Assembly (NCBI GenBank): GCA_022821965.1
Contig: JAJECN010000003.1
Location: 1 to 42,014, forward strand
Direction of reading: 5' to 3'
DNA from: Candidatus Poribacteria bacterium
Lineage (GTDB): Bacteria > Poribacteria > WGA-4E > WGA-3G
DNA: 42,014 nucleotides
The first letter of the stretch is position 1. The number at the start of each line of letters is the position of its first letter. Shown here one piece after another: positions 1 to 33,350 of this stretch. Position numbers and translations under genes: made by a program. The notes below the pieces were generated by a model, which did not search any database, was not told the origin of the DNA, and saw nothing but the letters and a program-made list of their open reading frames with translations.

Positions 1-114
1 CAAACGGCTATGAAATGGAGCACACCCGGGATAAATGCCATTTTATTCTGGCGATGTTTATTAAAGAATGGGGCCTGGGATGTATTTTGGGATCAACACT
101 CAAAAACCGCGTGA
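1..114 (+). pseudogene. C-terminal end of a transposase (gene enters from outside the window)
   Basis: Frame 1 is open from the first base to a TGA at 112-114 and encodes 37 residues. They include KWSTPGINAILFWRCL and, further on, NGAWDVFW. A Trp-rich tail of the form W..G..AIL..R....G.W..FW is typical of the C-terminus of DDE transposases of the ISKra4-like kind, although the family call is from memory and the fragment is short. The stop is followed 16 bases later by TTTACACACCCC (131-142), which fits an element terminus. I cannot tell whether the gene is intact upstream, so it is listed as partial rather than proven broken. Confidence 0.5.
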
Positions 115-127
115 ATAGTATGACAAA

Positions 128-145
128 ATATTTACACACCCCTTT
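128..145. repeat. Putative right terminal repeat of the insertion element
   Basis: The string ATATTTACACACCCC lies just downstream of the transposase stop. The same string in the same orientation occurs at 12016-12030 as the right end of a MITE-like element, and its complement core GGGTGTGTAAA occurs at that element's left end near 11755-11766. Shared ends between a transposase-bearing element and a small non-coding element suggest mobilisation in trans. Only one end of the larger element is in the window. Confidence 0.5.
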
Positions 146-148
146 TCT

Positions 149-177
149 TTGAATAATTCAAGAGGATGTGTTATACT
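149..177 (+). promoter_or_regulatory. Sigma-70-type promoter for the cyclase gene
   Basis: TTGAAT (149-154), a 17-base spacer and TATACT (172-177) make a near-consensus promoter. Transcription would start near 184, about 48 bases before the ATG at 232. A GGAAGGAG-type ribosome site precedes that ATG. The -35 box starts only about 4 bases beyond the end of the upstream insertion element. Confidence 0.6.
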
Positions 178-10538: not shown

Positions 10539-11732
10539 TCAAGATTTTTGCTCGATCTCCGTCGGATAAAAATGGACATCTCTTTGTGGGAAGGGGATTT
10601 TAATGTCGTATTCTTTAAACTTTTCCCAGATCATAAAATGGAGATCGCTGGCAATATCAAAACGCTGAAAGCAGTCAGGAAGCCAGACTAACAACTGAAA
10701 TTCTAAAGCGGACTCTCCGAAGTTGACAAAGCGCACAAACGGTGCTGTTACACCTTCCATCGCAGGATCGGGTTCTTTGATGACCTCGGGATGCGTCTCT
10801 GCAACCTCAAGCAGCACTTTTTTGACGAGTTCCACGTCCGAATCATACGATACACCTATCGGAATTTGAAGACGATACCGGTTGTTATAGTGCGTAAGAT
10901 TATGAACCGGCTCCGTAATAAATTGAGAATTCGGAACGATAACCTCCTTTTCATCGAGCGCGACGATGACCGTTGAACGGAGATTGATGCTACTGACTCT
11001 ACCAAATATATTAACGTCCATGATCTCGACGAGATCTCCAATTTTGATAGGTCTCTCAAAAATTAGAATAAAACCTGAAATCAAGTTTGAGGCAATATTC
11101 TGCAAACCGAAACCGATACCAATACTCAAACCACCAAAAATTATCGCTAAACTTGTGAAACTCACCCCGACGGTGCTCAGACTGATAAGTACACCGATAA
11201 TAATAAGGCTAAAATGAAGAAAGCGGAGCAAGATAAATTGGGTATGCTCTGCAATTTGAAAGGCTTGTAGCACCTGCCGCCGTAGTACCCATTGTACATA
11301 TTTTGACAGGATAAACATCCCGAAGACAATCACAAACCCATAAAAAAGCCTTGCCAGAGTTAATTTACCCACATCTTCAGCAGCATCAGTTTCACCGAGT
11401 CTTTGGGATGGTTGAAATAGATCTGTGAGTGGGTAATCAAGAAGTCTGCCAAAGAACCCAGTGCTAATTCCAGCGAACCGGAATGCCAAACCGACTCCAA
11501 AAATCAGCACAATCAGGAACAGCAGCGCGAGTAATCGATTGCTGAGGTGTTGTGGCATCCCGAATCGATTGAAGAGCCTCCGGAACCATCGACGTAAAAA
11601 ACCAGCGGTGGCTAACGTAGCTGCTAAAGTCCCAACTAACAAAATAATTTGGCTGACTTTTACAGGTTCTTCACCCAAAGTGATGACACGCGTTTGAAGT
11701 AAATCAAGAAATCGTTGAATCAACTCATCCAT
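10539..11732 (-). CDS. MscS-family mechanosensitive channel
   Basis: The 397-residue protein has about four hydrophobic segments, then a pore-helix region rich in Gly and small residues (SLAIIFGGLSIGIGFGLQN, about 195-213), then the soluble beta and alpha/beta domains of MscS. GFGLQNIASNLISGFIL followed by IKIGDLVEI is the most conserved stretch. These channels open when membrane tension rises and release solutes during osmotic downshock. The extra N-terminal helices place it with the longer MscS-like proteins rather than the minimal channel. The ATG lies about 20 bases from the edge of a MITE-like element, so its upstream promoter region may have been altered by the insertion. Confidence 0.9.
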   Translation of the reverse strand: MDELIQRFLDLLQTRVITLGEEPVKVSQIILLVGTLAATLATAGFLRRWFRRLFNRFGMPQHLSNRLLALLFLIVLIFGVGLAFRFAGISTGFFGRLLDYPLTDLFQPSQRLGETDAAEDVGKLTLARLFYGFVIVFGMFILSKYVQWVLRRQVLQAFQIAEHTQFILLRFLHFSLIIIGVLISLSTVGVSFTSLAIIFGGLSIGIGFGLQNIASNLISGFILIFERPIKIGDLVEIMDVNIFGRVSSINLRSTVIVALDEKEVIVPNSQFITEPVHNLTHYNNRYRLQIPIGVSYDSDVELVKKVLLEVAETHPEVIKEPDPAMEGVTAPFVRFVNFGESALEFQLLVWLPDCFQRFDIASDLHFMIWEKFKEYDIKIPFPQRDVHFYPTEIEQKS

Positions 11733-11740
11733 CTAATGCT

Positions 11741-12037
11741 ATCCTACCCATAGGCGGGTGTGTAAAGTTTTTGGCAGCATATTGATTTTTCAAAGCGGAC
11801 AGGTTTGCGGACATAGCACTCCGATGGAGTGCGAGAGAACAGGGCTATCTCTTTCTATAGATATATTGCTCCGCTGGAGCAAAGAGGCTTCTGAGAGGTC
11901 GGGGTTCTCTTCACGCCAGAGGCGTGATATATCTATAGGGGTAGATGTCAACGATGAAGGCACTCCAGCGGAGTGCTATGTCTTAGATCGCCCCGATATG
12001 GGAACGCTGCCAGAATATTTACACACCCCTATCCTAC
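11741..12037. mobile_element. MITE-like non-coding element with terminal and nested inverted repeats
   Basis: The 358-base gap between the mscS start and the transporter stop holds this element. Imperfect inverted ends of about 25 bases lie near 11754-11778 and 12006-12030 (GGGTGTGTAAA core, GGCAGC inner edge). TATCCTAC occurs immediately outside both ends (11741-11748 and 12030-12037), a possible 8-base target duplication, although a few extra bases separate it from the left end. Inside are perfect inverted pairs at 11810-11822/11970-11982 and 11855-11866/11927-11938, plus small palindromes at 11816-11832, 11868-11880, 11912-11926 and 11960-11976. An open frame from 11758 crosses it but looks accidental. 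Confidence 0.65.
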
Positions 12038-12090
12038 TCACCCCTGTGTGCTCAAGAATCCGACTCAGTAAAATCGGTAGGTATATCTCG

Positions 12091-14364
12091 CTAATCAATC
12101 GAGATTTGCTCAATCGCATGCACAAACAGGACATCGTTCGCGTCTGCATAGGAACGCAGGGTTTGACTCAATTTTTCAGAACCGAGGTCTTCTCCCGTCA
12201 AGCCTGCGATGACCAAATCTGTCTGAGAGGATCGGTGCTCTACCTCTTGCTCTAAAGCTTTTTGGCTGCTGTAAGACACGGAAGTCACGTTATGCATTGA
12301 AATCGGTAGTCGTCCCTCTCTCATCAATGCTGAGAGTCTGTCCGCTTCACGCTCAGCATCCGTAGCCTCGGAACAAGCAAAAAGCCGGATTTCAGCACGT
12401 CTCCAATCTGGATGTCCCACAATAATATACGCGAGCAGTAGCATCATTGGCGCGTTTTTCAGATTGTCCTCAGTCACCCAAACATCAATGGTAGAACGAT
12501 ATCCAAAGCGGTAACCCGTTGAGCGCAGGACGAGGACATTGAACAGCGAATTCGCAACAAGGCGTATCCCTTCCTCGACCTCCTCAATCTCGTCAGGGTT
12601 TTCTCGATCAAACTCAAGGAGGACACAGTTATTTGGCAAACCAGAAATTCCCGGCATTTGTAGTATTTGTGACAATGCAAGTTTAAATGTCGGGCAAATT
12701 ACGGAATCGACGAAGATACCGGCTCTGCTAACCTCTGTCCTTTTAATCAACTCGTCAACATGGATACGCGCTTGGAGTTCGCTGGAAAATGAGTAGTCAC
12801 CGTGGAACAGACGAATGAAGTGTCCGAATCCGTGCCTGTGGCAGATCCAGCGGAGCAAATCGAAATGTCCAAGCCTCCGCTCACCGAATCGAGTCACTGC
12901 GACAATCGACGGGCGCCATCCGCCCTCAGACGAGATAACACGGCTCTTTTGTAAAGTAATTTGAAGCCATCGGGTTAACTGAAACATCGTCCCTTGAAAG
13001 ATCGCTGTCAAGTCCCGTTGTCCCTTATGACTTCGACGGAGACCGAGGTAAGTTACCGCCATAAGCCCAATTGAAATAAAGGCATACAGTGCGCTGATTT
13101 GGAACATCATCAAACCGCACATCACAGTGCCTAATAGGGACAAGTACCAACGAGAATGGAAAGTAGGACGATAGGACGGATTACTCGCGAAATGCTCAAG
13201 GAACGATACCGCACACAGTGCGCCATAAGTTACCATGAAGAACATCGTCAAAATCTGGGCGATAAAGTCCAATTCACCGATCGCTACGAATACAATCGCG
13301 ATTATGCCAGATACAGAGGTCGCATACACGGGTTCCTGCGTCTCTCCTATACCCTTTTCCATGAGACGGTTCAACTTGGGGATAGGTAGTACATTATCGC
13401 GAGCGAGCATCTGGAGCGTTCTTGGAGCCACCATAATTGAGCCGAGAGCAGAGGAGAATGCCGCTGCACCCAATCCAACATAGATTGCTGAACTCCAGAG
13501 AGATATCTTCGCCATGATAAACTCGTCCGCCGCAAGTGCTTCAGGGGTAGCACTCTGTCCCAATTTGATCGCAACAAGTACATATATGACCATGCCTGCG
13601 AACGTTGCAGCGATTGTTCCGAGCGGTATGCTTCTTTGAGGGTTCCTCAGGTCGCCGGATAATCCCAAGCCAGCGATCATACCAGTGAAGGCAGGAAAAC
13701 ACGTTGCGAAAACTATACCAAAACCATCAGGGTTCTCAATACGTGCCGTAAGGTTCAACCCTTCAGGTTGGATCGATTCGGGACCCGAACCAAAAAGAAA
13801 TGAGATGATTGACACCGCTAAGATTCCACAGACGACCCACAGTACCCGAACACCGACACCAGCCCCCTTTGTCAGCATAAGCACAAGAAGCAAAACAGTG
13901 AAAGGAAGGCTTACCCAACGCGGGTCAGGGGTCAACACATACGTCGTCGAAACCCAATCATAGATAGGTTGAAAGGATTGCGCAAACGCGACGATATAGA
14001 AGGCAACCGAGATCGCTTGCGAGATATACAAGGCAATTCCGATGCTGCCACCGATACTTTCGCCGAAGGAACGGCTGACAATATAGTAGGCACCACCGCC
14101 CGCGACACGACGGTTCGTTGCAATCTCGGAAACTGCCAGAACTGTGGGAACAGTCACGAGATGACCCAGTGTGATAACCATGAGACTACCCCACAGACCG
14201 GCGTGTGCCACAGCGTAACCGAATCGTAAGAAGAGAATTGCCCCAAGAATGGTACTAATCGAGGCAAGAAACACAGGTGCGGTGCCGAAGCCGTGTCCGT
14301 GTTGGGGTCCCGGAACACCGCTACCAAATCTGGATTCAGATCGTTCTCCTGAGCTTGAGAGCAT
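12091..14364 (-). CDS. SLC12-like (cation-chloride cotransporter/APC superfamily) transporter
   Basis: The 757-residue protein has about 12 membrane segments in its first 470 residues and a soluble C-terminal half. The first segments, VFLASISTILGAILFLRFGYAVAHAG and later GGGAYYIVSRSFGESIGGSIGIALYIS, match the eukaryotic SLC12 signature (GAILFLR and AYYLISRSLG-type motifs) better than ordinary amino-acid permeases. The C-terminal part resembles the cytosolic regulatory domain of that family, including NVLVLRSTG and a late LVIAGLTG strand. Bacterial and archaeal homologues exist. Ion selectivity is not established: Na/K/Cl transport or amino-acid transport are both possible. The ATG follows AAAGGAAAAC with good spacing. 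Confidence 0.82.
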   Translation of the reverse strand: MLSSSGERSESRFGSGVPGPQHGHGFGTAPVFLASISTILGAILFLRFGYAVAHAGLWGSLMVITLGHLVTVPTVLAVSEIATNRRVAGGGAYYIVSRSFGESIGGSIGIALYISQAISVAFYIVAFAQSFQPIYDWVSTTYVLTPDPRWVSLPFTVLLLVLMLTKGAGVGVRVLWVVCGILAVSIISFLFGSGPESIQPEGLNLTARIENPDGFGIVFATCFPAFTGMIAGLGLSGDLRNPQRSIPLGTIAATFAGMVIYVLVAIKLGQSATPEALAADEFIMAKISLWSSAIYVGLGAAAFSSALGSIMVAPRTLQMLARDNVLPIPKLNRLMEKGIGETQEPVYATSVSGIIAIVFVAIGELDFIAQILTMFFMVTYGALCAVSFLEHFASNPSYRPTFHSRWYLSLLGTVMCGLMMFQISALYAFISIGLMAVTYLGLRRSHKGQRDLTAIFQGTMFQLTRWLQITLQKSRVISSEGGWRPSIVAVTRFGERRLGHFDLLRWICHRHGFGHFIRLFHGDYSFSSELQARIHVDELIKRTEVSRAGIFVDSVICPTFKLALSQILQMPGISGLPNNCVLLEFDRENPDEIEEVEEGIRLVANSLFNVLVLRSTGYRFGYRSTIDVWVTEDNLKNAPMMLLLAYIIVGHPDWRRAEIRLFACSEATDAEREADRLSALMREGRLPISMHNVTSVSYSSQKALEQEVEHRSSQTDLVIAGLTGEDLGSEKLSQTLRSYADANDVLFVHAIEQISID

Positions 14365-33159: not shown

Positions 33160-33350
33160 TTGATATACTAAACTTTGGACAATTTTTTTTAATTCTATAA
33201 ACATTCCGCCCCTCTGGGGCTGCGCTTTGGTGGCTTTGCGTTTATTTTTCTGCGAGTTGCATTTGTGTGGGAAACTTTGAGAAAAATAAGAATGCTTTGA
33301 AAACTGGGCATGAACCCGATAGAAATTGTCCAAACTATAGTTGATATAGA
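33160..33350. repeat. Inverted-repeat element 1 upstream of rplS
   Basis: TTTGGACAATTT at 33174-33185 has an exact inverted partner at 33323-33334 (AAATTGTCCAAA). Flanking GATATACTAAAC and CTATAGTTGATAT extend the match loosely. The inner part has no gene. It fits a small non-autonomous element or a decayed repeat. Confidence 0.5.

Follow-up and report, generated by a model that had tools for sequence, protein, structure and literature searches.

The 273-bp unit at positions 11756-12028 of the Candidatus Poribacteria DNA analyzed here (the window, meaning the whole stretch of 42,014 nucleotides, which is contig C22 of a genome of 5.69 Mb that is assembled into 62 contigs) is best explained as a MITE of the ISKra4 family that formed around, or was invaded by, a REPIN-like core of four hairpins, likely partnered by a Y1 transposase, and we place the probability of this reading at about 0.85. 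The MITE assignment is supported by ends shared with ISKra4-family IS elements, by copies that carry 9-bp target duplications, by empty sites in relatives and by the duplications of the IS elements themselves. The features of the window copy are:

11756-12028, no strand assigned: MITE unit, 273 bp (limits from full-length matches in relatives, at query positions 307-579, and from the 9-bp duplications of other copies)
11756-11778, plus strand: left terminal inverted repeat, G type, GGGTGTGTAAAGTTTTTGGCAGC (inverted-repeat search)
12006-12028, minus strand: right terminal inverted repeat, T type, reading GGGTGTGTAAATATTCTGGCAGC on that strand (inverted-repeat search)
11739-11747, plus strand: left copy of the 9-bp target duplication CTATCCTAC
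11748-11755, plus strand: 8 extra bases, CCATAGGC, from the duplication to the left end
12029-12037, plus strand: right copy of the 9-bp target duplication CTATCCTAC

An earlier note, made from the sequence alone, had proposed a MITE with imperfect inverted ends at 11741-12037. The two ends are indeed inverted (11756-11778 and 12006-12028, 23 nt with 87% complementarity) and the element does lie within that interval, but the actual unit is narrower, at 11756-12028. A duplication is also present, although it is not the 8-bp TATCCTAC that had been suspected; it is the 9-bp CTATCCTAC, and because 8 bases part its left copy from the left end, the window copy is without an abutting duplication. These 8 bases probably stem from a small insertion at a later time or from imprecise joining at the left end. 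Nested palindromes are real as well, and the internal inverted repeats of the unit match at 96% over 23 nt and at 78% over 32 nt. The predicted fold of the unit has z = -10.5 as DNA and z = -11.5 as RNA, and in each case 0 of 200 shuffles equaled it. The unit is flanked by two genes, both on the minus strand, and is situated upstream of a mechanosensitive-channel gene (10539-11732), 23 bases from its start codon, and downstream of an amino-acid-permease-like gene (12091-14364), 62 bases from its stop.

The first bases of the window contain the remains of an element with a related end:

1-141, plus strand: right end of an ISKra4-family IS, with a terminal repeat ending at 141
1-111, stop at 112-114, plus strand: C-terminal transposase piece of this IS
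142-150, plus strand: 9-bp duplication CTTTTCTTT of the window-start IS, with its second copy on contig C5

The 37-residue frame at 1-111, which is present at four contig edges of this genome, shares 73% identity with the terminal part of a 428-aa frame from the relative G034. In G005, G017, G034 and G013, the IS elements read are 1.33-1.45 kb in size, have a single long frame and lie between duplicated flanks. Four of four proteins from G005, G017 and G034 pass the NCBIfam model NF033572 (ISKra4), with 219-249 bits against a cut-off of 205, a result that identifies the transposase family as ISKra4. The earlier proposal that the unit is a non-autonomous derivative of the transposase family at the window start, by which it would be moved, is supported. 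The string ATATTTACACACCCC occurs at 128-142, where it had been reported, and in the unit at 12015-12029, one base to the left of the reported 12016-12030; 14 of its 15 bases belong to the element, and the final C is flank. The complete IS elements have the same GGGTGTGTAAA ends and 9-bp duplications, so the proposed kinship of ends holds, with the qualification that only the right end of the unit is identical in this string to the window-start IS, whereas its left end (G type) is that of another IS sub-type.

Within the window's own genome, the ISKra4 transposase gene is present as terminal pieces only, and GGGTGTGTAAANNTT has 23 occurrences, with 0 for the reversed pattern. Four contigs with IS left ends and four with right ends pair one-to-one through perfect 9-bp duplications (C2-C36, C3-C50, C5-C22 and C28-C37), and the other 12 pairings have 5-8 mismatches. 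We infer that this genome carries four ISKra4-family IS copies that the assembly did not cross. The matching duplications thereby predict four contig joins through IS copies in this genome (G000). A candidate for a complete 2.2-kb IS (C57:275099-277311) was rejected, as no transposase frame was found among its ORFs and no matching flank was seen by eye. In G032, which has several MITE copies, the transposase search of the genome gave no match.

Copies of the unit were sought with window positions 11450-12350 as the query in 60 genomes, including the window's own. At least 45 of the 60 genomes matched, a figure that should not be taken for a number of MITEs, as matches to the flanking genes and to the palindromes contribute to it. 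The window copy is the only full-length MITE in its own genome, and full-length matches were found in at least 12 further genomes of the genus. Among the matches listed, 22 full-length copies, which come from 13 genomes within a single Candidatus Poribacteria genus, were aligned, a set that excludes truncated copies (L138, L139, L154), partial copies (L155, L197) and duplicate fetches (L135, L136, L151). Both ends are common to the full-length copies aligned, and the exact 23-base left end occurs in 53 stretches of the genome collection, every one of them labelled Poribacteria. Target duplications of 9 bp are perfect in 10 of the 22 copies and have at most one mismatch in 14; three or more mismatches are found in the remaining 8, which include G032b, a copy with an 8-bp duplication.

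The unit is absent from all 10 of the orthologous intergenic loci that were read in relatives (flanks 72-91% identical), where the earlier note had suggested looking for empty sites; at two of them, L121 (G001) and L122 (G008), another insert of ~1.8 kb occupies the same intergenic site. At these empty sites, exact CTATCCTAC is present once each in G001 and G008, near-forms of it are found in G026, G034, G013 and G032, a fragment remains in G017, and the target site is unrecognizable in G007, G023 and G016.

The IS ends fall into two types that differ just inside GGGTGTGTAAA, with GTTTTTGG defining the G type and TATTTTG the T type. Ends are matched in 7 of 7 long-frame IS elements with duplications (5 G/G and 2 T/T), a count that excludes one spurious pairing spanning a MITE and an IS. 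One of the seven, the 1333-bp IS at L058, is ~95 bp shorter than its relative L074. Mixed end types are found in 18 of 21 short elements, a tally in which one of three short elements scored as having two G ends, L110, really has a T-type end that was mis-scored through a one-base gap. Because most of the 18 mixed-end elements belong to one family they do not represent 18 events, yet elements with mixed ends have remained mobile while diverging considerably, and such hybrids give a hint of the end bases that are tolerated by the transposases. The left end of the unit is 96% identical over 28 bases to a G-type IS end, and in G018, where the IS ends seen are of the G type, contig edges repeatedly carry members of a subfamily that has G ends on both sides. 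In G034, a 183-bp mixed-end MITE on contig C68 lies 17 bp from a T-type ISKra4 IS (L058 / L132), and the 17-bp gap consists of two tandem copies (9 + 8 bases) of one duplicated target.

For several elements of the ISKra4 group, insertion sites are reported to lie upstream of predicted sigmaA promoters, at a distance of 13-17 bp (PMC3942029), and for ISLre2 and ISKra4 elements a preferred position 50-250 bp from genes is described (PMC9208149). The MITEs show the same promoter-upstream preference as that published for ISKra4. Across 149 distinct junctions, to which one element may contribute two, 30 of 46 outward TTGAC motifs begin at bases 16-18, and 31 lie within bases 13-19 compared to a shuffle mean of 1.0 and a maximum of 4 (200 shuffles). 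A match to TTGACA at five or more of six positions was found within bases 15-18 at 37 of the 149 junctions, against a shuffle expectation of 3.6, in a scan whose end classes are rough (at least one MITE end was classed as an IS right end). When the scan was limited to the 22 MITE copies and used a looser -35 (4 of 6) plus a -10, a sigma-70-like -35/-10 pair with its -35 starting 15-18 bases outside one end was found in 13 of them (shuffle mean 0.52, maximum 4, 1000 shuffles); other offsets gave 0-4 copies, except for 10 at 17-20. The window copy is one of the 9 copies of 22 that have no promoter-like pair at 15-18. The unit thus resembles the ISKra4 family (p-MULT 4, prokaryotic Mutator-like), as described in PMC3942029, in its common transposase model, IS organization, inverted ends and duplications, but differs from it in lacking a transposase gene, in having ends of two sub-types and in having the promoter on either side (6 to the left and 7 to the right of the 13 units, never on both sides).

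The interior of the unit contains the following elements:

11805-11832, plus strand: tag (TTGCGGACATA) and palindrome 1, GCACTCCGATGGAGTGC (11816-11832)
11855-11882, plus strand: tag CTATAGATATA and palindrome 2, TTGCTCCGCTGGAGCAA (11866-11882)
11911-11938, minus strand: palindrome 3, TCACGCCTCTGGCGTGA (11911-11927), and tag CTATAGATATA
11960-11987, minus strand: palindrome 4, GCACTCCGCTGGAGTGC (11960-11976), and tag (TCTAAGACATA)
11855-11938, no strand assigned: inner 12-bp stem, 11855-11866 / 11927-11938, CTATAGATATAT / ATATATCTATAG

Each of the four palindromes is 17 nt long, with a 7-bp stem, a 3-nt loop and a CTATAGACATA-like tag on its 5' side, so that the core consists of two direct pairs of CTATAGACATA-tagged palindromes that face each other; for palindromes 1 and 4, local and long-range pairing are about equally good. 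Conservation across the 22 copies is 96% in the stems and loops of the core, 92% in the paired bases of the outer ends and 68% in the spacers. Two-sided change was found in 6 core pairs (shuffle mean 3.6, with 24 of 500 shuffles reaching 6), and the core covariation score and the number of two-sided-change cells were reached in 0 of 500 shuffles; strong covariation in the core was rejected, the number of pairs with two-sided change being only modest.

The palindromes of the unit are members of a repeat family separate from ISKra4, and its interior is not a shrunken IS. A strict pattern that represents the tag and part of the palindrome (TATAGAYATN6CCN3GG) has 36 matches in the window's own genome, 42 in G021, 44 in G005, 86 in G017, 38 in G032 and 56 in G041, and 0-1 per genome when reversed; G036 has 0 strict matches, yet related hairpin arrays exist there. 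Of 30 tagged-palindrome sites sampled, 27 could be classified (several of them sharing a locus) and 3 had no qualifying palindrome near their center. Among the 27, 14 have no nearby MITE end, 8 have one end, 3 have paired ends of the AACCTAAGTTGC type and 2 have paired ISKra4 ends. The usual unit elsewhere is a direct pair of tagged palindromes ~50 bases apart.

It is unlikely, in our estimate, that the unit is simply an ISKra4-derived MITE inside which the palindromes arose, to spread elsewhere later. Its ends and duplications are those of ISKra4, as such an origin would predict, and two palindromes of the core kind (CCCC-GTA-GGGG) are likewise found in a second MITE with mixed ends, the 183-bp L058:1271-1453, which extends the link between ends and hairpins beyond a single family. 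On the other hand, a comparison of the unit interior with 7 IS copies gave no match better than E 0.9, and 25 of the 27 sampled hairpin sites lie outside paired ISKra4 ends (4 have one such end). In addition, hairpins occur in G041 and arrays in G036, where the transposase piece had no match, tagged hairpins are also found beside Y1 genes, and a mixed-end unit of 192 bp at C19:152634-152825 of the window's own genome, which is without an abutting duplication, has no hairpin of the tagged type on inspection by eye.

The association of these repeats with Y1 genes is seen in G021, where an array of tagged-palindrome pairs adjoins a gene for a 159-aa Y1 protein. Homologs of this Y1 subfamily are present in 22 of 38 genomes of the genus, at 1-3 per genome, and were not found at E 1e-20 in the window's own genome. 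Tagged palindromes lie beside 19 of 30 subfamily loci (33 matches were listed); they are present at 14 of 14 loci of a near clade (~80% identity or more) and missing at 11 of the 16 loci outside it. By comparison, palindromes were found at 1 of 27 other Y1 loci (Fisher p 1.3e-6), at 2 of 26 ISKra4 loci and in 0 of 30 reversed Y1-locus sequences. At 13 of the 14 near-clade loci, palindromes are found on both sides of the Y1 gene (L341 has them on one side), and the nearest palindromes are inverted at 12 of these 13, the exception being L323. The Y1 protein passes the IS200/IS605 model NF033573 (73-76 bits, cut-off 55), and the solved structures closest to it in sequence are those of transposases, among them 2fyx and 2xm3; the proposal that it is a RAYT was rejected, since it fails the cut-off of NF047646 (28-37 bits, cut-off 80). 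The interior of the MITE, with two plus and two minus palindromes and the tags outward, has the hairpin order of a four-hairpin unit in the G021 array, on the opposite strand.

These repeats are comparable to the REP, BIME and REPIN sequences and their RAYT partners, for which tagged palindromes, inverted arrangements, many copies and arrays beside a low-copy Y1 transposase gene are likewise described (PMC3116915, PMC2817692, PMC3733652). As with REPs and REPINs, inverted repeats flank the Y1 gene in the near clade (at the 12 two-sided loci noted above). The two systems differ in that REP and REPIN sequences have a GTAG (or CGTC) tag and a RAYT-type Y1 and usually exceed 100 copies per genome, whereas the Poribacteria repeats have the CTATAGACATA tag, a Y1 protein that scores as IS200/IS605 and 36-86 strict-pattern copies in 6 of 7 genomes (0 in G036), and their usual unit is the direct pair.

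Hairpins that adjoin Y1 genes and form the best-conserved part of the unit might also indicate that the Y1 enzyme is the main mover of the unit, with the GGGTGTG ends as passengers. We consider this highly improbable, as precise ends, 9-bp duplications (14 of 22 copies) and ISKra4-type promoter spacing point to a DDE enzyme, and known IS200/IS605 elements are described as having neither terminal inverted repeats nor larger target duplications (PMC2817692). A conserved structured RNA or terminator that merely resembles a mobile element would account for the strong fold and the high stem conservation, but this reading was rejected as having almost no chance of being correct, since the sequences that flank different copies are unrelated and include target duplications, and since the unit is missing at the orthologous sites that were read.

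If the unit is an ISKra4-family MITE with a REPIN-like core, then ISKra4-family DDE (Mutator-like) transposases would recognize its GGGTGTGTAAA ends and move it in trans, inserting it into a target whose two strands are cut 9 bases apart, which would produce the 9-bp duplication, and insertion would often occur where a -35 box begins 15-17 bp outside one end. The likely partner of the tagged-hairpin family is an IS200-like Y1 transposase, which would presumably recognize the tagged hairpins. It is possible, though we hold this only tentatively, that both enzymes work on the same DNA, with the DDE transposase acting on the outer ends and the Y1 enzyme on the inner tagged hairpins; if so, a REPIN-like family rides MITEs into promoter regions and is dropped 15-17 bp upstream. 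Promoter targeting sets strongly folded hairpins at a fixed distance from promoters, where they may influence transcription, and so provides a natural experiment on regulation.

The unit also illustrates concretely how one selfish repeat family can be carried by another, and QMITE2 of Coxiella burnetii may be an earlier instance of this. QMITE2 is, by description, a MITE with a repetitive extragenic palindrome, whose GTAG-tagged palindrome is presented as a target of IS1111 (PMC10969869); given this precedent, the presence of a REP within a MITE is in itself no novelty. The unit differs from QMITE2 in its four CTATAGACATA-tagged palindromes, its symmetrical core and the Y1 gene that accompanies the same repeats in relatives. 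Other bacterial MITEs, such as RUP, Nezha, ERIC and Correia, are likewise reported to span 70-300 bp, to share ends with an IS and to fold strongly (PMC3733652, PMC2817692), but the partner of the present unit is ISKra4 and its interior comes from a second repeat family. No ISKra4 MITE was found described in a search of open-licence literature, where, in the portions of text available, sources naming ISKra4 and MITE together mention ISKpn19 and MITEEc1, or IS statistics, apart. Similarly, the available text of a review of prokaryotic MITEs (PMC10969869) has 0 occurrences each of ISKra4, RAYT and REPIN, and treats a GTAG REP in QMITE2.

Tagged palindromes were also seen in other settings. The window contains a further one at 33194-33222 (TCTATAAACATT + CCGCCCCTCTGGGGCTG, with one mismatch), and short elements with AACCTAAGTTGC / GCAACTTGGGTT-like ends also bear them, at L005 (C19:1367), L053 (C58:8330), L212 (C27:200210), L241 and L245. 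At L321 (G011:C24), a Y1 gene lies between palindromes, with an ISKra4-type MITE end beyond one side and an AACC-type end beyond the other, an arrangement that looks as if two MITEs had been joined at the Y1 gene.
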